DNA from: Actinomycetes bacterium
GTDB lineage: Bacteria; Actinomycetota; Acidimicrobiia; Acidimicrobiales; Aldehydirespiratoraceae
Direction of reading: 5' to 3'
Assembly (NCBI GenBank): GCA_024276495.1
Contig: JAJRXC010000029.1
Coordinates: forward strand, 1-64,000
Length of the DNA: 64,000 bases
This document shows positions 1-11,787 of this stretch, in pieces. The notes under the pieces are model-generated. The model was not told the origin of the DNA. It saw only the letters and a list, made by a program, of their open reading frames with translations, and ran no database searches. Numbering within the stretch: the stretch's first letter is position 1; each line of letters begins with the position of its first letter. Made by a program: the position numbers and the translations under genes.

Positions 1-328
1 GGAGCGCCGCCAACACCTCATCGGCGGTCAACCCCGTCGCCCCCGCCACCAACTCCACCAGCGGCCCCACCTCACCGGCCGCGCCACCCTGCGCGTCGAC
101 CAACGGATCCGCCATGTTCGTGATGTTGTCGACGATGCCGATGCCCACCCGGTCTCCGGCCACTCGCTCCTCGGTGAACGCGGGCCGGGCACCGTCGAGC
201 ACGTTCTGACCGGCGTCGAGCCTCGGGAACAGCTCGAGACCCCAGACGACGGCCAGGATCACCGCGCCGGCCACAACCACCACGAACCATGCAAACGTGT
301 TCGAGTTCCTGGTCGATCTGCTCACCAT
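1..328 (-). CDS. Membrane-anchored protein of unknown function (3' end off window)
   Basis: The frame opens with ATG at 328 and has no stop before the left edge, so about 109 residues are visible and the C-terminus is missing. Residues 13-31 form one hydrophobic N-terminal membrane segment. The remainder is soluble, alternating acidic and hydrophobic, and is predicted to lie outside the membrane. I do not recognise the family. It is the last visible gene of a minus-strand operon with two small membrane proteins and a DUF1059-type protein, 25 bases after the latter. Codon use fits its neighbours. The start is supported by frame and by the hydrophobic helix beginning right after it; the Shine-Dalgarno is weak (GAAAG). 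Confidence 0.7.
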   Translation of the reverse strand, partial: MVSRSTRNSNTFAWFVVVVAGAVILAVVWGLELFPRLDAGQNVLDGARPAFTEERVAGDRVGIGIVDNITNMADPLVDAQGGAAGEVGPLVELVAGATGLTADEVLAAL

Positions 329-353: not shown

Positions 354-530
354 CTATGTCTCGGTCACCGTCGAAAGCGCGTAGTTGACCAGCGTCTCGT
401 TGAGCTCGACCCCGTGGGCCTTGCTCGCATGCGCGGCGACCTTCTCGACGAGCTCTTCGGCCGTCTCTGCCCGTGTGACCGACTTACAGTCGGTGACGCC
501 GACGTGTACTCAACGAAATTCGAGTGTCAT
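354..530 (-). CDS. DUF1059-family small protein, probable selenoprotein (in-frame TGA at codon 7)
   Basis: Reading from ATG at 530 gives 58 residues if the TGA at 512-510 is decoded. The product begins MTLEFR, then the TGA, then VHVGVTDC, and goes on to TRAETAEELVEKVAAHASKAHG. This matches the DUF1059 pattern of Cys, D/H-V-G, a second Cys, a T-E-E-E-L-type helix and a terminal H-x-x-x-x-H-G. The TGA falls exactly where the family has its first conserved Cys. The ATG has a strong AAGGAG six bases upstream. No ATG, GTG or TTG lies between the TGA and the conserved core, so a shorter start cannot explain the gene. A hairpin at 494-478 has SECIS geometry. The alternative is a pseudogene or base error. 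DUF1059 proteins are uncharacterised; two Cys suggest a redox or metal role. It lies in an operon 19 bases after a membrane-protein gene. Confidence 0.75.
478..494 (-). promoter_or_regulatory. Candidate bacterial SECIS hairpin of the DUF1059 gene
   Basis: The transcript forms a perfect 6-bp stem, ACCGAC with GTCGGT, closing a five-base loop TGTAA. The loop starts 21 nt after the TGA. Known bacterial SECIS elements place the apical loop about 16-37 nt after UGA with a G in the first two loop positions; both hold here. The assignment is by geometry only. Confidence 0.55.
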
Positions 531-549
531 CCCGTGCTCCTTCGGATCT

Positions 550-813
550 TCAGGCGACCGACTCGTCGGACCGGCTCACATCGGCCACGAGGCCTTCGAG
601 TGCGTCCGCGACGGCGCCGAGATTGGCGTTGATGTTGCCGGTCAGCTCGTTGATCGGCTTCGTTTGATGGGCGATGGCCCTCACGCCGAACGTGATCTTG
701 CCCAGTTGATCGTTGGCATGGCGCAAGATGAAGATGATCCGGACGAGATAGCCGACGAGGGCGAGCACCGCGATTGCCACGAGGACGAGGGTGACGATCG
801 CGACGGCAGACAT
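550..813 (-). CDS. Small single-pass membrane protein, unknown function
   Basis: This encodes 87 residues. The N-terminus (about residues 2-30) is one long hydrophobic helix followed by RHANDQL. The rest is a soluble, probably helical tail with regularly spaced hydrophobics, consistent with a coiled coil, ending in an acidic SRSDESVA. I do not recognise the family. It starts 10 bases after the stop of the 82-residue membrane protein upstream and ends 19 bases before the DUF1059 gene, so it sits in the middle of a four-gene operon. The two small membrane proteins have the same layout (N-terminal helix, helical tail) and may form a complex; this is inference. Confidence 0.75.
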   Translation of the reverse strand: MSAVAIVTLVLVAIAVLALVGYLVRIIFILRHANDQLGKITFGVRAIAHQTKPINELTGNINANLGAVADALEGLVADVSRSDESVA

Positions 814-823
814 GTTTCTCCGA

Positions 824-1072
824 TCAGACCAGTCGACGCAGGGCAGTCACGTAGCGCACCGCCTCGCCGGTGACCTTCGCGACCTTCGCGTCGGTGTCGA
901 CCAGTTTCGAGACAGGGACCAGGTTCTCGGTGAGGAGCACCCCGTGTTCGAGGATGTCGTCGCTGTAGGCCTGGATCTCCAGGCCGGGCCGCACGACCCG
1001 GTTCGCGAGCAGGATGACCAGCGGGATGACGATCACCAGACCCACGAGGTTCGCCAACCACCACAGCCACAT
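824..1072 (-). CDS. Small single-pass membrane protein, unknown function; first gene of operon
   Basis: This encodes 82 residues. Residues 1-25 are Trp-rich and strongly hydrophobic (MWLWWLANLVGLVIVIPLV), a membrane anchor. The tail resembles that of the next gene: hydrophobics at helical spacing, and a VSKLVDTDAKV stretch. A GAGGGGG Shine-Dalgarno precedes the ATG. It is the promoter-proximal gene of the minus-strand operon that includes the probable DUF1059 selenoprotein, and is divergent from the CooC-like ATPase gene. No family recognised. Confidence 0.7.
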   Translation of the reverse strand: MWLWWLANLVGLVIVIPLVILLANRVVRPGLEIQAYSDDILEHGVLLTENLVPVSKLVDTDAKVAKVTGEAVRYVTALRRLV

Positions 1073-1234: not shown

Positions 1235-2002
1235 ATGAAAATCGGAGTAGTCGGCAAGGGCGGGGTGGGCAAAACGACGATCTCGTCGATGGTTTGTGCC
1301 TCCTACGCCAGGCGTGGACGCCGGGTGATCGCGGTCGACACGGACTCCAACCCGAATCTGGGGATCTCGCTCGGCCTGAGCGTCGAACAGACCGAGGCCC
1401 TCCAGGTCCTACCGAGATCCGTGATCGTCGGAGAACGAGGCGACCTCACGGTGGATGAGCTGATCGACGACTATGGCGCGCCCACCCCGCTCGGCCCGAC
1501 GGTGATGTCGGCGCTGCGGGTCACCGAGGCCGCAGCCGGGTGCACCTGCGGTGGTCACGCGACGGTGCGAAGCCTCCTCGGCGAAGCCATGGAGCAACAC
1601 GCCGACATCACCCTCATCGACATGGAAGCCGGGATCGAACACCTCAGCCGATCCGGGGGCACGCTGGCCCACGCCGACGTCTTGTTGATGGTGATGGAGG
1701 CGACGGTGAAATCGGTGATCACGGCCGCCCGGACGATCGCGCTGGCCGACGAGCTCGGAATCCCGCACTGCGTCGGCGTCGGGAACAAGGCCCGCCTCCC
1801 CGAGGACCGGGCCGTGTTCGAGCAACTGTGCGAGGAGTACGAGGTTCCTCTGCTCGCGATCGTCCCGCACGATGCCGGCGTCGTCGATGCCGACCGGGGC
1901 GGTCACGCGCTGTCCCCCGATGCCGGCGGCCCGGCCTGGGCCGAGATCGACCGACTCCTCGACCACGTCGATCAGCTGCTGGGTTCGAACGCTCCGGCGT
2001 AG
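1235..2002 (+). CDS. CooC-like nickel-enzyme maturation ATPase (MinD/ParA superfamily)
   Basis: This is a 255-residue cytosolic P-loop ATPase. The N-terminal KGGVGKT is the deviant Walker A of the SIMIBI class. DTDSNPN is the Walker A-prime region and LIDMEAGIEHL the Walker B/switch II region. Two nearby Cys (GCTCGGHATVRSLLGE, about residues 103-118) match the region where CooC proteins carry metal-binding Cys. CooC supports nickel insertion into carbon monoxide dehydrogenase. No CODH gene is visible, so the client is unknown; hypF next door suggests a [NiFe] hydrogenase instead. It is followed after 6 bases by a LuxR-type regulator gene, probably in the same transcript. It could alternatively be another ParA/MinD-like protein. 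Confidence 0.75.
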   Translation: MKIGVVGKGGVGKTTISSMVCASYARRGRRVIAVDTDSNPNLGISLGLSVEQTEALQVLPRSVIVGERGDLTVDELIDDYGAPTPLGPTVMSALRVTEAAAGCTCGGHATVRSLLGEAMEQHADITLIDMEAGIEHLSRSGGTLAHADVLLMVMEATVKSVITAARTIALADELGIPHCVGVGNKARLPEDRAVFEQLCEEYEVPLLAIVPHDAGVVDADRGGHALSPDAGGPAWAEIDRLLDHVDQLLGSNAPA

Positions 2003-2008
2003 AACCCG

Positions 2009-2644
2009 ATGAGTACCGGAGCCGAAGGTGTGACCGCGCCGATCGACATCGTCATCGTGGACAAGAGTCCGCTGGTCACCGAGGGTCTGCGTGCCTTTTT
2101 CCGGGCGGACGGGCGAATCGGGGAGATCGCCGTCGCGGCCGGTGTCGACGAGTTCTTCGCCATCTCCACGAAGCGGGCCTTCGATGTCGCCGTGACCGGC
2201 TGGGTGCTCGGGGCCGACTCCGGGAGCCGGATACTCGAAGCGGTGGCCGATCGCGACGACGGCCCGCGAGTGGTCGTCTACACGGGCGCCCCCGCGGCCA
2301 ACATTCCCCACACCGTGATGGCCTTGGGGGGCGCGGCGTTCTGTTCGAAGACCGAACCGCCGGCCCGCCTCATCGAGATCGTCGTCGAGGTGGCTCGCGG
2401 GCAGATGGTGTTCCCGTTTCTCGAGGTACGTCGATGGAGAAGTGATCGGCTGAGCACGCTGACCCCACGGGAGATGGCCTTCGTCGCCGCGCTCGCCGAC
2501 GGGCACAGCAACAAGTCGCTGGCGGCCGAGTTCGGGGTCACGGTCAACACCGTCAAGTTCCATCTCCGCAATGCCTACGCCAAGCTCGATGCCCGCAACC
2601 GGGCCCAGGCGGTCGCCGTTTTCCTCCAGTCAGAGGGTGGGTGA
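2009..2644 (+). CDS. LuxR-type regulator with degenerate receiver domain
   Basis: This encodes 211 residues in two domains. Residues about 12-130 have the fold pattern of a receiver (IDIVIVDKSPLVTEGLRAFF). The usual phospho-acceptor Asp after the third strand is absent: the site reads VAVTGWVLG. Residues about 145-205 form a LuxR/NarL helix-turn-helix beginning LTPREMAFVAALADGHSNK. The protein is likely a DNA-binding regulator that does not depend on Asp phosphorylation. It follows the CooC-like gene by 6 bases and its 3' end overlaps the convergent hypF by 15 bases. It may control the nickel-enzyme maturation genes; that is inferred from position only. Confidence 0.85.
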   Translation: MSTGAEGVTAPIDIVIVDKSPLVTEGLRAFFRADGRIGEIAVAAGVDEFFAISTKRAFDVAVTGWVLGADSGSRILEAVADRDDGPRVVVYTGAPAANIPHTVMALGGAAFCSKTEPPARLIEIVVEVARGQMVFPFLEVRRWRSDRLSTLTPREMAFVAALADGHSNKSLAAEFGVTVNTVKFHLRNAYAKLDARNRAQAVAVFLQSEGG

Positions 2645-4933
2645 CGTGACGGCACCGGCCTGATCTCGGGCCGCGGCGATCGCAGCCTGACCGAGGCTGA
2701 CTCCCCCGTCGTTCGGGGGAACCCGTCGATGACGCAACACCCGAAATCCGTGCACGTCGAGCCCGGTGACGACACTTGTCGTCAGCACTCGGTTCATGAA
2801 CACCCCACCGGAGAGCGCGACCGTCGACGGACCTCCGCCCTCCCGGATCCGAACGCACGCCGCGATCACCGTGCCGGCGACGCCGGCGTGGAAACGGGCC
2901 GCGATTCGTCGGACCCCGATCCCGGCGCGGAGATCGGCGAGCGCGGCGGCGAAGAGCTCACCGCCCCGGATCGAGAACGTCTCGTAGCCGTCGAACGACG
3001 CCGCGTAGGCGCCCCGTTCGTGCGAGTCGACCATCTGCTCGAGCTCGACGGCGGCCTGGCCCTCGTAGTTGACCGTGTCGCGGACACCGAGCAGCGCGGC
3101 AACGGCGTCGAAGAGCCGGCCGGCACTCGAGGTGGTCGGCCCGGCGAGCGCCGACCGGGACAACGCGACGATGTCGGCCCATCGCGGTTGTCGGCGGATC
3201 AGATCGACATCGGTGGCCTCGGCCTCTCCGGCCGCGATGAGGTAGGCGGCCGCCATCCGCCAGGGCTCACGCATCGCGGCGTCACCACCCAGCAGCGGCC
3301 GCGGCTCGAAAGAGGCGACTCGCTCGAAGTCGACGAGATCCGCCACCAGGAACTCGCCGCCCCACAAGGTGTGGTCCGAGCCGTAGCCGAGCCCGTCGAA
3401 CGCCACACCGATCACCGGTTCGTGATGTTCGTTGTCGACCATGCATGCCGCGATGTGGGCGTGATGATGTTGAACCGGGACGAGATCGACGCCTCGCAAC
3501 CGCTGGGCGAAAGCCGTGGACAGGTAGTCCGGGTGCAGGTCGTGGGCGACGAGCCGCGGCGTCATGCGGAAGAGCCGCTCGAAGTGTTCGACGGCGTCGA
3601 GGTAGGAGTCGTGTGTCTCGATGTTCTTCAGGTCGCCGATGTGGTGCGACACCACCGCACGATCACCGTGTGCGACGGTGATCGTGTTCTTGAGCTCGGC
3701 CCCGCAGGCGAGAATCGGCCGCCGGGCCTCGACGGGCAGCCGGATCGCCGTCGGCACGTACCCCCGCGAGCGGCGCAGCATCATCGGCTCGCCGGCAACG
3801 ACCCGGACGACCGAATCGTCGGTGCGGGTGCGAATCGGCCGATCGTGGACCAAGAACGCGTCCGCGATTCCCGACAACCGGTCAAGGGCCTCGTCGTCTC
3901 GGAACGCGATCGGTTCGTCGCTGACGTTGGCGCTGGTGAGAACGATCGGTTCGCCCGTCGCCGCCATGATCAGTGTGTGAAGAGGTGTGTACGGCAGCAT
4001 CACGCCCAGTTCGCCGGTGTGAGGGGCGACCGCCGACGCGAGACCGCTGTCGACGCGTCGGGGCATGACGACGATGGGTCGGGCGGCGTCGCGAAGCAGC
4101 GCCTTCGCGACGCCGTCGACGGCACACAGCGCGCTCGCCCCGTCCAGGTCGGGAACCATCACGGCGAAGGGCTTGTCGTCTCGCCGCTTGCGGGTCCGCA
4201 GCGCCCCCACGGCCTCGTCGGACCGTGCCCGGGCGGCGAGGTGGTACCCGCCGAGGCCCTTCATGGCGACGATCTTGTCCGCGAGGAGAAGTGCGGCGGC
4301 CCCACCGACGGGATCCGAACCGAGGGACCGGCCGGCCCGGTCGACCAACGAGAGCGTCGGCCCACAGGCCGGACAACAGATGGGCTGGGCGTGGAAACGT
4401 CGATCGGAGGGATCGGAGTACTCGGCCCGACACGCCGGACACATCTCGAATGACGACATCGTCGTGCGGGCCCGGTCGTAGGGCACGTTTTCGACGATCG
4501 TGAATCGAGGACCACAATTCGTGCAGTTGGTGAAGGCGTAGCCGAAACGACGCCCATCGGGATCCGCGATCTCCGCGAGGCATTCGGGGCAGGTCGCGGC
4601 GTCGGGGGTCACCCGCACCGGCTCGCGGCCGCCGCGCTCGCTCGCGACGATCTCGAAGCCCGAACGCCCGACGGGTTCGATGTCGACGGTTTCGATCGTC
4701 TGGACGACCGCGAGCGCCGGGGTTTCCCGATCGAGCGCGACGCGGAGCTCGTCGAGTCGCTCCCGCGGGCCCTCGACCTCGATGACGACCGCCGCGCCGA
4801 CGTTCCTGACCCAGCCGCCGAGGCCCAGCCGAGTCGCGACCCCGTGCACGAACGGGCGGAACCCCACGCCCTGCACCGTTCCACGAACGGTCAGCGATCG
4901 AGCCTGGATCGACCGAGGCGGACCGGTGGTCAC
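2630..4933 (-). CDS. hypF: Carbamoyltransferase HypF, [NiFe]-hydrogenase maturation
   Basis: This 767-residue protein has all HypF parts in order. An acylphosphatase domain carries GTVQGVGFRPFV at residues 18-29. Two zinc fingers follow (C115/C118 with C137/C140, and C165/C168 with C187/C190). Next come a YrdC-like domain and a Kae1-like C-terminal domain with QHHHAHIAA. HypF uses carbamoyl phosphate and ATP to make the thiocarboxamide on HypE that becomes the cyanide ligands of [NiFe] hydrogenases. The start is GTG at 4933; length is typical of the family. No hydrogenase structural gene or other hyp gene is visible here, so the rest of the set must lie outside the window. It is 147 bases downstream of the methyltransferase gene on the same strand. 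Confidence 0.95.
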   Translation of the reverse strand: MTTGPPRSIQARSLTVRGTVQGVGFRPFVHGVATRLGLGGWVRNVGAAVVIEVEGPRERLDELRVALDRETPALAVVQTIETVDIEPVGRSGFEIVASERGGREPVRVTPDAATCPECLAEIADPDGRRFGYAFTNCTNCGPRFTIVENVPYDRARTTMSSFEMCPACRAEYSDPSDRRFHAQPICCPACGPTLSLVDRAGRSLGSDPVGGAAALLLADKIVAMKGLGGYHLAARARSDEAVGALRTRKRRDDKPFAVMVPDLDGASALCAVDGVAKALLRDAARPIVVMPRRVDSGLASAVAPHTGELGVMLPYTPLHTLIMAATGEPIVLTSANVSDEPIAFRDDEALDRLSGIADAFLVHDRPIRTRTDDSVVRVVAGEPMMLRRSRGYVPTAIRLPVEARRPILACGAELKNTITVAHGDRAVVSHHIGDLKNIETHDSYLDAVEHFERLFRMTPRLVAHDLHPDYLSTAFAQRLRGVDLVPVQHHHAHIAACMVDNEHHEPVIGVAFDGLGYGSDHTLWGGEFLVADLVDFERVASFEPRPLLGGDAAMREPWRMAAAYLIAAGEAEATDVDLIRRQPRWADIVALSRSALAGPTTSSAGRLFDAVAALLGVRDTVNYEGQAAVELEQMVDSHERGAYAASFDGYETFSIRGGELFAAALADLRAGIGVRRIAARFHAGVAGTVIAACVRIREGGGPSTVALSGGVFMNRVLTTSVVTGLDVHGFRVLRHRRVPPNDGGVSLGQAAIAAARDQAGAVTSPTL

Positions 4934-5080: not shown

Positions 5081-5860
5081 CTACTGCGTGTCCCACCAGA
5101 TGATGACGCGCTCGGTCGGAAACGATGTCGTCTTGGCAAACTCCGCGACTTCCGGTTCGCGGTCGGCCGGTAGGCAGAGCTGTCTCGTCCAGAACGCGGC
5201 CGCGACCGGCGCCGCCCGCTCCGCGTCTCGTTCGGTCGCACGTGACTCCTCCACCTGCACCTCGAAACCAGCGTGCTCCAACACCTCGGCGGCCAGGAAC
5301 GCGGTCGGCCCGGATGGCCTGTCGATGCCCCAGAAGTGTTTCCACATCGACGCCCGATTCGTCTGCGGATGGTCCGCCGTGATCTCGAAGACCACACGTC
5401 GCCGCGCATGGGAGTGCGCCGCGCCGGCGAACGCCGCCAGGTCGGACACGTTGTAGAGCACGTTGTTCGACACGACGACGTCTGCGATCGGCACACTCCC
5501 GGCGATCTCCGGCCATGATCCGGTCACCGTCTCGCAGGGAATGCCTCGTTCCGCGGCCGTGGACGCGAAGGCGGCGGTCATGTCCGCTTGGCGGTCCGTG
5601 CCGATCAGAGCGGTTGCCGGTGGTACCAGCGCAAAGCCGGCTGCTCCACCACCGCAGCCCACGTCGAGGACGGTCCCGCCCCCGCCGAGGGCTTCCGCAG
5701 CCCGCTCACCCGATCGCGACAACGGAAACTTCCCGGCCGGAGGCGCGGCGAACATCTCAGAGGGGAAGACGAACGGCCGCTGCGGGGCTGACGCAAGGAT
5801 GTGGGCCGGGACCTCCCAGCCGGCCAGCTCCGACGCCCACTGCTTCGCAGCGTCGGTCAT
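5081..5860 (-). CDS. SAM-dependent class I methyltransferase
   Basis: This encodes 259 residues. Motif I of class I methyltransferases is clear (VLDVGCGGGAAGFAL, about residues 64-78), followed by an acidic residue at the end of strand 2 (LIGTDRQADM). VVVSNNVLYNV is motif IV. The substrate cannot be read from the sequence. Its ATG overlaps the stop of the DsrE-like selenoprotein gene (ATGA), so the two are translationally coupled. It is the sixth gene of a run that starts with an ABC solute-binding protein. Context suggests it acts on something imported by that transporter, or with the DsrE protein; this is inference. Confidence 0.85.
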   Translation of the reverse strand: MTDAAKQWASELAGWEVPAHILASAPQRPFVFPSEMFAAPPAGKFPLSRSGERAAEALGGGGTVLDVGCGGGAAGFALVPPATALIGTDRQADMTAAFASTAAERGIPCETVTGSWPEIAGSVPIADVVVSNNVLYNVSDLAAFAGAAHSHARRRVVFEITADHPQTNRASMWKHFWGIDRPSGPTAFLAAEVLEHAGFEVQVEESRATERDAERAAPVAAAFWTRQLCLPADREPEVAEFAKTTSFPTERVIIWWDTQ

Positions 5861-6225
5861 GATCCGAGGTAGATGAACTCGGCTTCGTCGTTGGCGACCT
5901 CGAGCATGATGTCTGCGAGCTTACGAAGCCTGCCACCGACCGATGCGACCATGTCGTCTGAAACCGCACGGGCTTCGGTACAACCCGGTCAAAACGTGAA
6001 ATCTCCCGGCCCGCCCTTCGCAGCCTTCATTCTCGCGCGGATGTCGTTGCCCACCTCGTTGTCGGGGAAGACATCCGGGTTGGCGGCCAACACGGCCGGC
6101 CCGGCCAGACGGATCTCGGTCTTGATCCCCTTCTCTTCGGCCGCCGCGGCAAAGCGGTAGGCCGTGATGAACGGTTTCAGGTTCTCGTTCGGGTCGGCGT
6201 TGGTGAAGAAGATGAGCTTTTTCAA
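5857..6225 (-). CDS. DsrE-like selenoprotein with U-P-G-C redox motif
   Basis: Translation from TTG at 6225 runs 78 residues to a TGA at 5991-5989 and then continues in frame for 43 more (PGCTEARAVSDDMV... ending EFIYLGS), 122 residues in total. The N-terminus KKLIFFTNADPNENL is DsrE/DsrF-like. The TGA replaces the first Cys of the family's C-x-x-C, giving U-P-G-C. The real stop overlaps the methyltransferase ATG as ATGA, as do neighbouring junctions; the TTG start likewise overlaps the upstream ABC ATPase stop (TTGA). Without readthrough the gene would end about 130 bases short of the next start. A SECIS-like hairpin lies at 5976-5960. Sec-containing DsrE-like proteins are known from metagenomic selenoproteome surveys. 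It is probably a cytosolic thiol/selenol redox or sulfur-handling protein. Confidence 0.88.
5960..5976 (-). promoter_or_regulatory. Candidate bacterial SECIS hairpin of the DsrE-like gene
   Basis: A 6-bp stem, GAAGCC with GGTTTC (one G-U pair), closes the loop CGTGC. The loop begins 18 nt after the TGA and has G at position 2. Stem length, loop size and G position equal those of the hairpin in the DUF1059 gene. A competing pairing (CGGGTT with AGCCCG) places its loop only 7 nt after the TGA, too near for a SECIS. Confidence 0.6.
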
Positions 6226-7013
6226 GGTGTTCCCTTTTGTTGATCGACGGTTTGTCGAGTGACGGCTGCGAGCAGCGCCTTGGTTGCCGGATGTGCCGGA
6301 TCGCCGATGATCGTCTCGCCGGGACCCATCTCGACGATCCGCCCCGCATCCATGACGGCGATGGTGTCGCCCACGTATCGGGCCATGGCCAAGTCGTGGG
6401 TGATGTACAAGATGGCGGTGTTGTTGGCCTCCTGCAAGCGGGACAGTAGTTCGATCATGACCCCACGCAGCGACGCGTCGAGCATCGACGTCGGTTCATC
6501 CGCGACGACGAGCTCCGGTTTGGCGACCAGCGCCCGAGCAAGGGCAACTCGTTGACGTTGACCGCCCGACAGCGCATCGGGGTACCGCCTCCCGAGCTCG
6601 ATCGGCAACCCGACCTCCACGAGCGCGCCGTTCACGAGCTCCGCGCGCGCCGATGCCGGCACGCGTTCGATCGCCAGCGACTCACCGACGAGTCGTTCGA
6701 CGGTCATTCCCGGATGCAGCGACTGATACGGGTTCTGGAAGATCATGTGAACTCGTCGGCGCAGCTTGCGGAGCTCTCGGCGTGAAACGGTGCTCAGATC
6801 CTGCCCGTCGACCGACACCGTGCCCGTTGTCGGAGCAACGAGGCCGAGTGCCACTTTCGCGACCGTCGACTTTCCGGCACCACTCCGGCCCACGAGCGCC
6901 AACCGCTCCCCCCGATTCATGGAGAACGAGACATCGGCAGTGGCCACGACCGGGGGTTTTCGCCGGCTTCGAAATGTCACGCCGACGTCCTTCATCTCGA
7001 GCACGGGCGTCAT
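6222..7013 (-). CDS. ABC transporter ATPase, peptide/nickel (OppF/DppF) type
   Basis: This encodes 263 residues, with ATG at 7013 chosen because it overlaps the upstream stop (ATGA). Walker A is GRSGAGKST, the signature is LSGGQRQRVALARAL, and Walker B is LVVADEPTSMLDA. The C-terminus carries the DPAHPATKALLAAV segment typical of peptide/nickel importers of this class. It supplies the second ATPase of the importer; the first is fused to a permease in the gene upstream. Its stop overlaps the start of the DsrE-like selenoprotein gene by 4 bases (TTGA). Cytosolic face of the membrane. Confidence 0.93.
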   Translation of the reverse strand: MTPVLEMKDVGVTFRSRRKPPVVATADVSFSMNRGERLALVGRSGAGKSTVAKVALGLVAPTTGTVSVDGQDLSTVSRRELRKLRRRVHMIFQNPYQSLHPGMTVERLVGESLAIERVPASARAELVNGALVEVGLPIELGRRYPDALSGGQRQRVALARALVAKPELVVADEPTSMLDASLRGVMIELLSRLQEANNTAILYITHDLAMARYVGDTIAVMDAGRIVEMGPGETIIGDPAHPATKALLAAVTRQTVDQQKGTP

Positions 7014-8815
7014 GTGACCACCAGATGACAAGCCACCGGAAACTGCTCGGGAACCGTCTCTTCGCAGACATCCACCATTTTCGGACACCGCGGAGCGAAT
7101 CGGCAGCCGGACTCGACCTGGGAAAGGTCCGGCGGATCCCCCGGGATCGGGACCGGTGGCCGACGCGGGCCGAGAACCGGCGGAAAAGCGTTCAGCAACA
7201 GTTCCGTGTAGGGATGCCCGGGCGAGCGCAGTATCTCGGCCGCGTCACCCATTTCGACGATGCGCCCCGCATACATGATCGCGAGATCATCGGCGATTCC
7301 TCCCACCATCCGCAGATCATGAGAGATGATGAGGATGTCCATGTCGAGCTCGGTTCGCAAACGGTCGAGCAGGTCGAGAAGCTCGCGCTGGGTCACCACG
7401 TCCAACCCGGTGGTCGGCTCGTCGGCGATGAGGAGCTCAGGCTGGTTGGCGATCGCCATGGCGATGACAACCCGTTGGCGCATCCCGCCGCTGAGCTCAT
7501 GCGGGTAGGCGTCGTGTCGATCGACCGGGATGCCGACACGCGACAAGAGCTCTGACGCACGCTTCTTTCCGTCCGCGTGGGTCATCAGCGCCGACTCCGC
7601 GACCTGGCGACGAATCGTCACGATCGGATCGAGCAGGCTCATGGCGGCTTGAGGAACAACCGCGAATCTGCGACCCCGCAGCTTCGTCAGCCCAACACGT
7701 CCGAGCCGCCTCAGATCCGTGTCGCCGAGCACCACCTCGCCCTCGACGATTCGGCCTGGCGGCCCGAGCAACCCCGCCACCGCCATCGCCATCGTCGACT
7801 TGCCGCTTCCCGATTCCCCGACGATGCCGAGAATCCGGCTCTTCCGAGTGCGAAGATGCACCGACGTCACCGCGAGTACGGGCGGCTCCGTCTCGTAGTG
7901 AACCGACAGATCTCGCACAACCAGCGATTCGCCCTCGCCCGCGGGTGCGGCCGGATGCGGCGGCAGCGTGCGTCGCATCCCTCGTCGGTAGCCATATCCC
8001 GTGAGCCGCGGGTCGGCCCACTCTTCGGCCGCGTAGCCGACGAACGCGAAGCCGACGATCAGGATCGTCAGCGCAAAGCCGGGTGGCAGGATCCACCACT
8101 TCCACGCGTCGGTGAGAATCACGCTCGAGTTGTTGGCGAAGAAGAGCGTTGCTCCCCACGACACGCTGCCGGGGTCGCCGAGACCGAGGAAGGCGATGCC
8201 GGACTGCACGATCACGGCAACCGCCGCGGCCCGTACGAACTGCGACGACAGCAATGGCGTCAAGCGGGGCAGGACGTGTCGACCGAGGATCCGCCACAGG
8301 CTCGCCCCCATCGCCTCGGCCGCCACCACGTGCTCGAACTCCTTCACTTTCAGGACCTGGCCTCGCAACAAGCGCGCCGGGCGCGCCCACAGCACCCCCG
8401 CGATGAGCGCGATCGTCACCGAGAGTCCCCGTCCGAAGTAGGTCACCAACACCAGCACCAGCACGAGGAATGGCATCGACAACACCAGATCGACGATCCG
8501 CATGAGCACGGCATCGATAGTTCCGCCGCGATAGCCGGCCACGAGCGCGACGCCGGTGCCGAGCGCGGTCGCGATCACCGCGGCGATGAGTCCGACGCTC
8601 AGCGAGACCCGCGCGCCGAACAGCAGCTGCGACCAGAGGTCCCGCCCGAGATCGTCGGTTCCGAGGGGATGATTCGCCGACGGTTCCTCGAAGGGGAGAC
8701 CGGTCGTCTCAGTGGGCGGATGCTCGGCGAGCATCGGAGCGAACACCGCGGCGAGCAGCACCAGGGCAATGAAGACGCCACCGATCGACGCGACGACCTT
8801 GGTGGATCGTGCCAT
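7010..8815 (-). CDS. Fused ABC permease (DppC-type) and ATPase (DppD-type)
   Basis: This 601-residue protein joins two subunits that are normally separate. Residues about 1-280 are a DppC/OppC-type permease: an N-terminal helix, a FEEPSANHPLGTDDLGRD segment, several membrane spans, and the EAMGAS loop that contacts the ATPase. After a short Pro-rich linker, residues about 295-600 are an ATPase with Walker A GESGSGKST and signature ELSGGMRQRVV. Its C-terminal Cys-containing segment (ESGCRFAPRCPKMVDVCE) is the optional iron-sulfur-type motif seen in OppD/DppD. It overlaps the upstream permease stop (TGATG) and the downstream ATPase start (ATGA). Confidence 0.93.
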   Translation of the reverse strand: MARSTKVVASIGGVFIALVLLAAVFAPMLAEHPPTETTGLPFEEPSANHPLGTDDLGRDLWSQLLFGARVSLSVGLIAAVIATALGTGVALVAGYRGGTIDAVLMRIVDLVLSMPFLVLVLVLVTYFGRGLSVTIALIAGVLWARPARLLRGQVLKVKEFEHVVAAEAMGASLWRILGRHVLPRLTPLLSSQFVRAAAVAVIVQSGIAFLGLGDPGSVSWGATLFFANNSSVILTDAWKWWILPPGFALTILIVGFAFVGYAAEEWADPRLTGYGYRRGMRRTLPPHPAAPAGEGESLVVRDLSVHYETEPPVLAVTSVHLRTRKSRILGIVGESGSGKSTMAMAVAGLLGPPGRIVEGEVVLGDTDLRRLGRVGLTKLRGRRFAVVPQAAMSLLDPIVTIRRQVAESALMTHADGKKRASELLSRVGIPVDRHDAYPHELSGGMRQRVVIAMAIANQPELLIADEPTTGLDVVTQRELLDLLDRLRTELDMDILIISHDLRMVGGIADDLAIMYAGRIVEMGDAAEILRSPGHPYTELLLNAFPPVLGPRRPPVPIPGDPPDLSQVESGCRFAPRCPKMVDVCEETVPEQFPVACHLVVT

Positions 8816-9783
8816 CAGCCGATGTCCTTCACGCGCGGATCGAGGCGCGGATAGAGCAGGTCATTGAGGAAGTTGGCCCCGATCGCGATCAGGGCGAGAA
8901 GGAGGAACACGCCCTGGAGCACGGGATAGTCCCTCGCCAGGACGCTGTCGAACGCCAACGAGCCGAGACCCGGGTACGAGAAAACGGTTTCGACGACGGT
9001 GGCGGCGCCGACCAGCGTGCTGAATCCCAACAGCACGGCGGTCGAGACGGGCAGGAGCGCGTTGCGTTGCGCGTGCCGACGAACGGCGCGATCGTTCAAC
9101 CCCTTCGCCCGGGCCATGAACACGTAGTCCTCGCCCAACTCCGACACCAGCGCTGAGCGACTCGCCACGAATATCGAGCCGGCACCGGCAAGGACCAGGG
9201 TCGAGGCGGGCAGCACGAGACGGCGGGCCACATCGGTGACCCGAGCCCAGCCGCTGATGTCCGCGGCCGCCACCGCGCCGTAGACCGGAAACCAGTCCAG
9301 TTTCACCGAGAACGTCAACAAGAGCATGAGCCCGACGAAGAAAGCCGGGAGGGCGTCGACGGCGAGGACGCCGGACAACAAGACGATGTCGCGTTTGGTG
9401 CCGCGCCGCCAGCCGGCGGCGAACCCGAGTAGCACACCAACGACCGTCGATGCCGCCACCGCCACGCCGACCAGCAGGACCGACCATCCCAGCCGTCCCA
9501 CGACAACGTCTCGTACCGGTTGACCCGTGCGGATCGACACGCCGAGATCCCCGCTCGTCAGATTCTTGATGTAGGTCACGAACTGTTCGGTGTTGGATCC
9601 GTCCAGGTCGTAGCTCGCCAAGATGGCCTCGCGCTGTTCGGGCGTCACGAGCGGGGACGACTCCGGCGGCATCAGGTAGTCGATGGGGTCACCGGCGGCC
9701 AGCCTCGGCAGTACGAAGTTCAAAAGCAGCGCCGCGAGAACGACCAGACCGTACTGAAGCGCCAGTCGACGAACCCGCCTCAC
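8815..9783 (-). CDS. ABC transporter permease, DppB/NikB type
   Basis: This 322-residue inner-membrane protein has about six membrane spans. The N-terminal segment ends in RLAAGDPIDYLMPPESS, as in DppB/OppB permeases. The conserved ATPase-contact loop is DYVFMARAKGLND, followed by a typical C-terminal FLNDLLYPRLDPRV. It forms the translocation path with the permease half of the fusion protein downstream and overlaps it by one base. It begins 57 bases after the solute-binding protein gene. The transported substrate is not evident; peptides, nickel chelates or other small organics are all possible for this family. Confidence 0.93.
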   Translation of the reverse strand: MRRVRRLALQYGLVVLAALLLNFVLPRLAAGDPIDYLMPPESSPLVTPEQREAILASYDLDGSNTEQFVTYIKNLTSGDLGVSIRTGQPVRDVVVGRLGWSVLLVGVAVAASTVVGVLLGFAAGWRRGTKRDIVLLSGVLAVDALPAFFVGLMLLLTFSVKLDWFPVYGAVAAADISGWARVTDVARRLVLPASTLVLAGAGSIFVASRSALVSELGEDYVFMARAKGLNDRAVRRHAQRNALLPVSTAVLLGFSTLVGAATVVETVFSYPGLGSLAFDSVLARDYPVLQGVFLLLALIAIGANFLNDLLYPRLDPRVKDIG

Positions 9784-9840
9784 AGCCTGGTCAGCCGCGG
9801 CGGCGGGTCCGTGTCCTGGAGCATCAGCGAGGCGAAGAAG

Positions 9841-11727
9841 CTAGTCCTGCACCGTGCCGGCGCGGGCGTTCTTGCGGCGGACGAAGAACGCGCCCCCCGC
9901 CAACACCACGGCAGCACCGGCAACCGCGAGCAGCAGTCCCGAGTTGCCGTCGTCGCTGCTCGTCTCGGCATCGGCCGGCGCATCTTCGGTAGTCGGCGCA
10001 TCGTCGGTGGTCGGCGCATCCTCGGTGGCCGACGCTTCCTCAGTGGCTGGCGCATCCTCTGTGTCGGCTGCCTCATCCGCGACTGGCGGGTCTTCTGCGG
10101 CCCGAGCCGCATCGACATAACTCGCGATGAACGACTTCTTGTTGAACACGCCGTGGCCCGGGTCCGACACCCAACCGTCGTACGCCGCCGGCCGGTAGGC
10201 CCACCGGCCATCCGGGTAGAACAGGGTGACCGCCGGCATCAGCTCGGCGAGCTTCTCCTGCACTGCGACATTGCCCACCGCGACGCGCTCCTCGGCGCTC
10301 AGCTCGGTGGCGGCGACCGCCAGCGCATCGAACTCGGGGTCGGCCAGCCCGCTGAAGAACCCACCAACCCCGATGTCGCCGGGAGAATGGAAGAAGAACA
10401 GCAACGCGTCCGGATCAGCATGTGCGTGGGCCTCGAAGGTGTTGATGAACATGTCGATGTTCGGCGGACCATCGGGACCCGGGCGGCGGAGGGACGAGAT
10501 CGCGGCCGGGTCCAACGACTCAACCGTCACGGCCACTCCGATCGCCGCGACCTGCTCGGCGACCAGCTCACCCGATCGAATCTGCGGCGGAGCGAACGAA
10601 TTGACATAGAGCGTCCACTCGAGACGGTCGCCGTCGGGACTGACTCGGACACCGTCATCACCCATCGTGTAGCCCGCATCGTCGAGCATCGTGTTGGCAG
10701 CCGCGACATCGAAGACGTGACCGCCCGTCGGATGGGCCCAAGCGGAATCGGGATGGGTCCATGTGTCGTTGCCCGGGCGGGCCAACCCGCCCTCGACCAG
10801 GTTCACGAACACATCCAGATCGAGCGACATGCTGATGGCGCGTCGCACAGTGGCGTCGTTGAGAATCGGCCGGCGCGTGTTGAACATCAGATACACGGAC
10901 TGGAGACGACTTCCCTCGATGATCTCCAGGTCCGGGTTGTCCCTCATGCCGTCGATGAGGTTGCTGGGAACGTTTCGTGTCACGAAATCGAGCTCGCCCG
11001 ACTCCAAACCGGCCCACGCGGCCTGCGCGTTGCGCACCACCGGCATGATGAGCTCGTCGACCGTCACGTCGCCGAGGAAATAGTCTTCATTGGCGACCAG
11101 GCGGTACGAGGTGTCAGGAACGTACTCGACCATTTCGAACGGACCGGTGCCGATCGGCAATTCGGTGGCGTAGGTCAACGGTTCGTCGATCTGGGACCAG
11201 ATGTGCTCCGGCAGGATCGGAAGGTCACCACCGGGCAGAAACTTGAAGGTCGGAATCGGATCCTCGAAGTTGAGCACCACCGTGAAGTCGTCAACCACTT
11301 CGGCCGAAACGAAGGTCGGGTAGTCGGTCACGTGGTGTCCGTATCGCGAAGGCCCGCCCAGATCGGAGATGAACTGAAACGTGAAGGCGACATCGTCCGC
11401 GGTGAACGCCTCGCCGTCATGCCACTTGACACCTTCGCGCAGCGTGATCGTCCACGTGCGAGCGTCGTCAGACGACTCGGCGCCCGTCGCGAGAAAGCCC
11501 TCAGGGGATTCCGAGGCCTGTGACCAGAACAAGGTGTCGTAGACGAGGTTCGTGAGATCGTGGGTCAGGGGCTGCGCCATCGGGCGAATGAGCGGGTTGA
11601 AGTTCTTCTCAGCCGCGTGCAGACCGATGGTCAAGCTGACGGTCTCGTCTTCTTGCGCGCTGACCGACACTGTGCCGGCCAGCAGGACGAAGAGAACGGC
11701 AAACAGAGCAGTCGTGCGTGATTTCAT
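9841..11727 (-). CDS. Extracellular solute-binding protein (SBP family 5) with C-terminal membrane anchor
   Basis: This encodes 628 residues from ATG at 11727. The signal peptide is MKSRTTALFAVLFVLLAGTVSVSAQ; it lacks a lipobox Cys. The central part is a family-5 solute-binding domain with the WTITLREGVKWHDGEAFTAD motif and VRRAISMSLD. After about residue 550 comes a low-complexity acidic Ala/Thr/Glu repeat, then a C-terminal hydrophobic helix with RRKNAR. The binding protein is thus probably held by its C-terminus instead of by lipid, which is unusual for this family. The region between this start and the NagD-like stop is only 60 bases, so the importer may share a transcript with cbbY and the phosphatase. 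Confidence 0.9.
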   Translation of the reverse strand: MKSRTTALFAVLFVLLAGTVSVSAQEDETVSLTIGLHAAEKNFNPLIRPMAQPLTHDLTNLVYDTLFWSQASESPEGFLATGAESSDDARTWTITLREGVKWHDGEAFTADDVAFTFQFISDLGGPSRYGHHVTDYPTFVSAEVVDDFTVVLNFEDPIPTFKFLPGGDLPILPEHIWSQIDEPLTYATELPIGTGPFEMVEYVPDTSYRLVANEDYFLGDVTVDELIMPVVRNAQAAWAGLESGELDFVTRNVPSNLIDGMRDNPDLEIIEGSRLQSVYLMFNTRRPILNDATVRRAISMSLDLDVFVNLVEGGLARPGNDTWTHPDSAWAHPTGGHVFDVAAANTMLDDAGYTMGDDGVRVSPDGDRLEWTLYVNSFAPPQIRSGELVAEQVAAIGVAVTVESLDPAAISSLRRPGPDGPPNIDMFINTFEAHAHADPDALLFFFHSPGDIGVGGFFSGLADPEFDALAVAATELSAEERVAVGNVAVQEKLAELMPAVTLFYPDGRWAYRPAAYDGWVSDPGHGVFNKKSFIASYVDAARAAEDPPVADEAADTEDAPATEEASATEDAPTTDDAPTTEDAPADAETSSDDGNSGLLLAVAGAAVVLAGGAFFVRRKNARAGTVQD

Positions 11728-11787
11728 TCGGCGGACCGTAACAGTCCGACGATCGCTGTCTAAGGGCAATGTGCATCTAGTGGTCCG

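Follow-up and report, generated by a model that had tools for sequence, protein, structure and literature searches.

The window, by which we mean the whole stretch of 64,000 nucleotides analysed here (positions 1 to 64,000 of contig JAJRXC010000029.1, assembly GCA_024276495.1, Actinomycetes bacterium), starts with a run of small genes on the minus strand. One of these is a DUF1059 gene with an in-frame TGA, and a CooC-like ATPase gene and hypF lie further in. The types given here for the ATPase and the membrane proteins should be read with the knowledge that the former was assigned through Pfam and NCBIfam relatives, with no CooC model over its cut-off, and that transmembrane helices were judged by eye. 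The features are the following:

1..328, minus strand: next gene of the run, truncated at the end of the contig and hydrophobic close to its start
354..530, minus strand: putative selenoprotein gene of the DUF1059 family, 58 codons and a TAG stop, with conserved U7, C15, H34 and H39
478..494, minus strand: SECIS-like hairpin with a 6-bp stem and the loop UGUAA lying 21 nt after the UGA
510..512, minus strand: TGA, codon 7, predicted to be read as selenocysteine (Sec), at the family's first conserved Cys
537..542, minus strand: Shine-Dalgarno sequence AAGGAG, six bases 5' of the ATG
550..813, minus strand: 87-aa protein with a hydrophobic N-terminus, conserved upstream neighbour; DUF948 at 22.8 bits, below the cut-off
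824..1072, minus strand: 82-aa protein with a hydrophobic N-terminus, conserved second upstream neighbour
1235..2002, plus strand: CooC/MinD/ArsA-type P-loop ATPase, divergent
2630..4933, minus strand: HypF, [NiFe]-hydrogenase maturation carbamoyltransferase
5857..6225, minus strand: DsrE-like candidate selenoprotein with UPGC; TGA at 5991-5989, hairpin loop CGUGC 18 nt after the UGA

The initial annotation placed a DUF1059 protein at 354-530 without naming a strand. The coordinates are right and the strand is minus, with the coding part running from 530 down to 357 and the stop codon TAG at 356-354. Read through with the TGA as U, the product is MTLEFRUVHVGVTDCKSVTRAETAEELVEKVAAHASKAHGVELNETLVNYALSTVTET, which matches PF06348 over residues 4-49 with 40.1 bits (cut-off 21.1), while an NCBIfam search with the same protein matched no selenoprotein or DUF1059 model. 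The family alignment has four conserved positions, C/U7, C15, H34 and H39, of which the two histidines are about as well conserved as the Cys pair. The TGA (512-510) falls on the first of them, as had been claimed, and is flanked on both sides by conserved coding sequence. The ribosome binding site called excellent in the initial annotation is also there, an AAGGAG at 542-537. No alternative start would keep the domain, since the only in-frame ATG, GTG or TTG 3' of the TGA is a GTG four codons from the stop; likewise, the list of open reading frames holds no minus-strand frame of at least 40 aa in the gene beyond the TGA.

The window gene is not alone in the family in having a TGA here. The PF06348 model was run against 149 relatives and 395 genomes of the class, and a Sec/Cys alignment (A1) against 397 genomes from the order and 396 from the phylum; these genome sets overlap. 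One TGA was present in 13 of 48 PF06348 match rows from the 149 relatives, and in 27 of 60 (order) and 20 of 54 (phylum) A1 match rows; the place of the TGA within the row was read in all but 12 TGA rows of the 60- and 54-row sets. Neither TAA nor TAG occurred among the matches listed in the 48-, 60- and 54-row sets. A regular expression for the full motif, with C or U at the first position and shorter DUF1059 forms thus falling outside both counts, gave 39 distinct genes in which the first Cys codon is TGA (41 matches, two false frames removed) and 58 with Cys there (59 matches, one removed). The 39 comprise the window gene, 26 genes of an RDADHAC-like subgroup (23 from the same order as the window, three from named records) and 12 from other classes. 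When a DNA pattern of the subgroup was run against 84,980 species, it matched 20 stretches, 18 of them DUF1059 genes with TGA. These 18, mostly already among the TGA genes from the genome searches, all come from records with Acidimicrobiales, Actinomycetota, Actinobacteria or Actinomycetes in the title. The remaining two, from Anaerolineales (L150) and Deltaproteobacteria (L153), are not DUF1059 and were rejected. One genome (G090) has three Sec-type DUF1059 genes (L022, L044, L046), with the two small neighbours at L044 only.

Closer to the window gene the picture is different. The initial annotation had named Cys codons in all close relatives as one half of an argument against its reading, and this is indeed so for the nine nearest orthologues: among ten genes of the VGVTDC type, only the window has TGA and the other nine have TGY. 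In the tree, the window's clade (16 rows, support 100) has the window as its single Sec row, so that Sec at this locus relies on one metagenome-assembled genome. Outside these nine, a further 38 DUF1059 genes carry TGA at this position. The whole DUF1059 tree, which is poorly resolved with its 57 columns, needs at least nine changes between Sec and Cys.

A genome without Sec machinery had been the other half of that argument, and it does not apply here. The window genome has selA (395 bits) and selB (292 bits) adjacent to each other, and a tRNA-SeC (64.6 bits) with anticodon tca. Among 31 genomes in which a TGA gene was read, selB scored over the cut-off in 28 and tRNA-Sec was found in 23, with at least one of them in 29; the two with neither, G538 and G1051, are 85% and 78% complete. 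Taken alone, the presence of the machinery is mild evidence, because it is common among the relatives anyway (selB in 100 of 149, tRNA-Sec in 101 of 149). A second candidate lies in the window itself, where the DsrE-like frame matches PF02635 with 27.1 bits (cut-off 22.7); DsrE-like UxxC proteins are a listed selenoprotein family in the part of a recent catalogue that was consulted (PMC13188914). A scan of the window for other read-through frames of the UxxC type, under a strict composition filter, returned none, and it is uninformative since it missed the DsrE-like gene too.

The gene had been described as part of an operon of small membrane proteins, which fits, and the gene set also matches a known hydrogenase cluster. 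Ray et al. 2022 (PMC9561532) describe, in their section on the cluster, a group 1m [NiFe]-hydrogenase locus that holds DUF1059 and two single-TM proteins of 82-92 aa, together with a CooC-type Ni ATPase, a HybD peptidase, an FeS assembly protein, a TPR protein and a BirA homologue. In that section DUF1059 is termed 'of unknown function', with no mention of selenium. The window carries DUF1059, the two small TM proteins and the CooC-like ATPase together, and its contig stops at base 1, before a large subunit is reached in the run. Relatives extend further. A hydrogenase large subunit is present in six of nine fetched orthologous regions (L170, L171, L175-L178); none was matched within 19.5 kb in L173 and L174, and L172 stops at a contig edge. 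In the Acidimicrobiales isolate YX2bin23 (L164), a single strand carries a large subunit (cut), a protease, a NifU-like protein, another protease, a TPR protein, a BirA-like protein, the 82- and 87-aa proteins and a Sec-type DUF1059. Both small neighbours stand beside eight of the nine Cys orthologues, and the ninth (L112, at a contig edge) has one. Across the family, both occur within 1.5 kb on the same strand at 19 of the 39 Sec genes and at 21 of the 58 Cys genes, counts in which L107 has them more than 1 kb away, L143 has them downstream and some loci have less than 1 kb of upstream sequence. Neither neighbour lies within 1.5 kb at 20 of the 39 Sec genes, and eight ORFs chosen by length at four of these 20 loci had no shared theme (ABC transporter ATPases, YdjC, Hsp20, and four without a family). 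It is very likely that the window gene set is linked to a group 1m-type [NiFe]-hydrogenase, judging from gene content and order in relatives rather than from a hydrogenase tree. As side observations, the window (1-328) and L172 (9805-10134, genome G437) have the same gene downstream of DUF1059, and each contig stops within it or shortly after it. Close to the DUF1059 run, both the window (6222-11769) and L173 (11941-17800) also have genes for ABC transporters of the peptide/nickel type (SBP_bac_5, permeases, ATPases).

What the protein might do there can be approached from its four conserved residues. An AlphaFold model (pLDDT 90.7) consists of a strand, a short helix, a strand, a long helix and a helix, with H34 and H39 on a single predicted helix. 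Foldseek with this model gave no match at E 0.001, and a sequence search of the PDB found no relative of the window protein. A structural list contained the viral C2H2 zinc finger AFV1p06 (2lvh), a weak hit (Z 3.6, 2.2 Å over 43) tied with unrelated rows. The conserved positions suggest that U/C7, C15, H34 and H39 form one metal site. Another role would be that of a selenol/thiol redox centre without bound metal, in which Sec7 and Cys15 pass on electrons or reduce hydrogenase cysteines. Both residues are conserved, and the catalogue, in the part consulted, regards most uncharacterised selenoproteins as likely redox proteins (PMC13188914). The protein lacks a CxxC or UxxC motif, however, and two histidines conserved about as strongly as the Cys pair and placed on one helix are what metal sites have. 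We regard the redox role as a serious but lesser possibility, and give a modest preference to a metal-site helper over a pure selenol redox protein.

For the decoding itself, much depends on the hairpin. A perfect 6-bp stem with loop TGTAA at 21 nt from the TGA had been claimed, and exactly this is found at 494-478 (ACCGAC-TGTAA-GTCGGT). The bacterial SECIS (bSECIS) model, as given in the Fig. 2 legend of PMC13188914, has a loop of 3-9 nt with G in the first two loop positions, lying 16-37 nt from the UGA, on a stem of 4-16 bp with an MFE of -7.5 or lower. The window hairpin falls within these limits (loop 21-22 nt after the UGA, 6-7 bp, -8.2 kcal/mol). In the window and the 26 subgroup genes the hairpin starts at an equal distance from the UGA; counted zero-based from the UGA, bases 18-23 pair with bases 29-34 around a 5-nt loop. 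The loop is CGTTG, AGGTG, AGTTG or CGGTG in all 26, and together with the window's UGUAA it reads NG[G/U]NN in 27 of 27. The perfect stem at -6 kcal/mol or lower with the loop at 21-22 nt is found in 18 of 39 Sec genes vs 2 of 58 Cys genes. The level of -7.5 kcal/mol is reached by the window and, with perfect stems, by 11 of the 26 subgroup genes (25 of 26 if bulges are allowed), and a bulge-tolerant finder at that level separates the groups mildly (27 of 39 Sec vs 20 of 58 Cys). The 12 Sec genes from other classes have their hairpins at other places or have weak ones.

Checking the hairpin for covariance, as had been suggested, gave a mixed answer. When the window is added to the 17 Gln-type genes, 88.9% of cells are paired and three of six pairs changed on both sides, and controls with slid partners were lower in every measure. 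The window row by itself accounts for two of the three changes, and the remaining one concerns an outer pair that 11 of 18 rows leave open, which makes the covariation inside the subgroup slight. Fold energy alone is also unexceptional, with z about -1 for the window against shuffles, a mean z of -0.84 for the 26 subgroup genes (4 of 26 at 0.05 or below) and +0.12 for the 58 Cys genes (2 of 58). The weight lies in the position of the window hairpin, its pairing partners and its loop letters.

The hairpin might then be a by-product of the conserved peptide T-D-C-K-S-V and codon bias, with no part in decoding. As many as 28% of synonymous recodings of the window fold equally well, and L088 codes for Cys and still has a 10-bp hairpin. 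Against this, distance and partners equal those of the A-C-R-W-Q genes, which have another peptide frame: in the window protein the second Cys comes one residue later, so the hairpins coincide by their distance from the UGA and not by peptide frame. The loop codons of the subgroup are CGT, AGG or AGT, whereas CGC is common later in the same ORFs; for Arg, CGT or AGG is used in 20 of 21 loop codons vs 6 of 66 later ones (Fisher 1.9e-13, a value that is too small because relatives were treated as independent). Finally, where Gln is replaced by Ser, Ala or Arg the 3' arm is shifted or bulged, and the CAGG arm is retained, one base shifted, with Ser or Ala and lost with Arg. A by-product is improbable on these grounds. 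Two Cys genes deserve mention here. The L088/L117 orthologue (G419; DUF1059 at L117:1501-1671) has TGC and its 10-bp hairpin at the SECIS place, possibly a fossil or a precursor SECIS, and the Cys-type gene L138 (G859), in a genome with selB and tRNA-Sec, has a 14-bp hairpin with the loop 21 nt after the Cys codon.

Slightly less probable again is that a sequencing error or a recent nonsense mutation turned a Cys codon into the window TGA, in a family that may be Sec elsewhere. No other row among the close orthologues has Sec, the gene is known in a single copy from a metagenome-assembled genome, and one base turns TGY into TGA. But the start, the ribosome site and the remaining gene are intact, the hairpin stands at the distance of the Sec genes, where just 2 of the 58 Cys genes form one of -6 kcal/mol or lower, the loop codon is TGT where the nine Cys orthologues have TGC, and the genome has selA, selB and tRNA-Sec. 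That the TGA, lying within an open frame, is read as Trp or by unspecific read-through has a negligible probability, as the 87-aa neighbour terminates at TGA, a tRNA-SeC with anticodon tca is present, and the TGA sits at the Cys of the homologues in the genes read (the regular expression required C or U there, and the reading covered all but 12 of the TGA rows in the 60- and 54-row sets).

The candidate selenoprotein of the initial annotation is thus supported by Sec/Cys pairs, by a hairpin within the published bSECIS model and by selA, selB and tRNA-Sec in the genome. We are confident that the TGA is decoded as Sec, a reading of the window that draws on hairpin, machinery and family and on one assembly. 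SelB would bring Sec-tRNA(UCA) to the UGA of codon 7, guided by the hairpin 21 nt downstream. Sec would replace the first residue of a C-C-H-H set, and the compact DUF1059 domain may hold a C2H2-like metal site in which Sec could be a stronger and more easily re-reduced ligand for a soft metal. The gene would serve in an accessory set with two small membrane proteins, a CooC-type ATPase, proteases and NifU-like, TPR and BirA-like proteins, its likeliest job being that of a metal-binding, perhaps nickel-handling, or redox helper in hydrogenase assembly or protection. As an overall explanation, a 58-residue selenoprotein with Sec as a putative metal-site ligand in a hydrogenase accessory set is likely. 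The wider proposal, a new family across the phylum in which Sec ligates a C2H2-like metal site, some copies serve group 1m, Sec and Cys were exchanged repeatedly and L088 keeps a fossil SECIS, is tentative, its chances being a little under even.

As far as the searched literature goes, DUF1059 is probably a selenoprotein family absent from current lists. It has no row in Table 1 of the 2026 catalogue of 119 prokaryotic selenoprotein families and subfamilies (PMC13188914), and passages on DUF1059 retrieved by full-text search do not mention selenium. A search for selenoproteins together with Acidimicrobi- found none, most subscription papers being outside its coverage, and a groundwater MAG study cited in the catalogue (PMC13188914) may list candidates. 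If the reading is true, it adds a selenoprotein family likely to escape ordinary gene calling, because the frame is broken at codon 7. It would also make an accessory protein the link between selenium use and the scavenging of atmospheric hydrogen, connect selenium supply with the proposed high-affinity hydrogenase of soil Actinomycetota, and turn the published link between DUF1059 and hydrogenase into a chemical hypothesis. With syntenic Sec and Cys orthologues in one gene set, the benefit of Sec over Cys at a metal ligand is directly testable.

Among known systems, the Cys form of DUF1059 (PF06348) is the closest, sharing the domain, the C/U-C-H-H positions and syntenic orthologues in hydrogenase clusters; the window gene differs in that its first Cys is Sec, by our reading, and its hairpin and loop fit a bSECIS. 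With the 119 catalogued families it shares a UGA at a conserved Cys, a bSECIS and the Sec machinery, but many of the catalogue rows consulted are UxxC or CxxU, whereas the window protein has U-x7-C and later H-x4-H (PMC13188914). What the window has in common with the group 1m cluster, as described in PMC9561532, is DUF1059 with a pair of small TM proteins and a CooC-type ATPase. In [NiFeSe] hydrogenases selenium is likewise tied to a [NiFe] enzyme, but there Sec is inside the hydrogenase, according to the part of PMC13188914 consulted, while the large subunit of G419 has Cys in the DPCMPC near its end.
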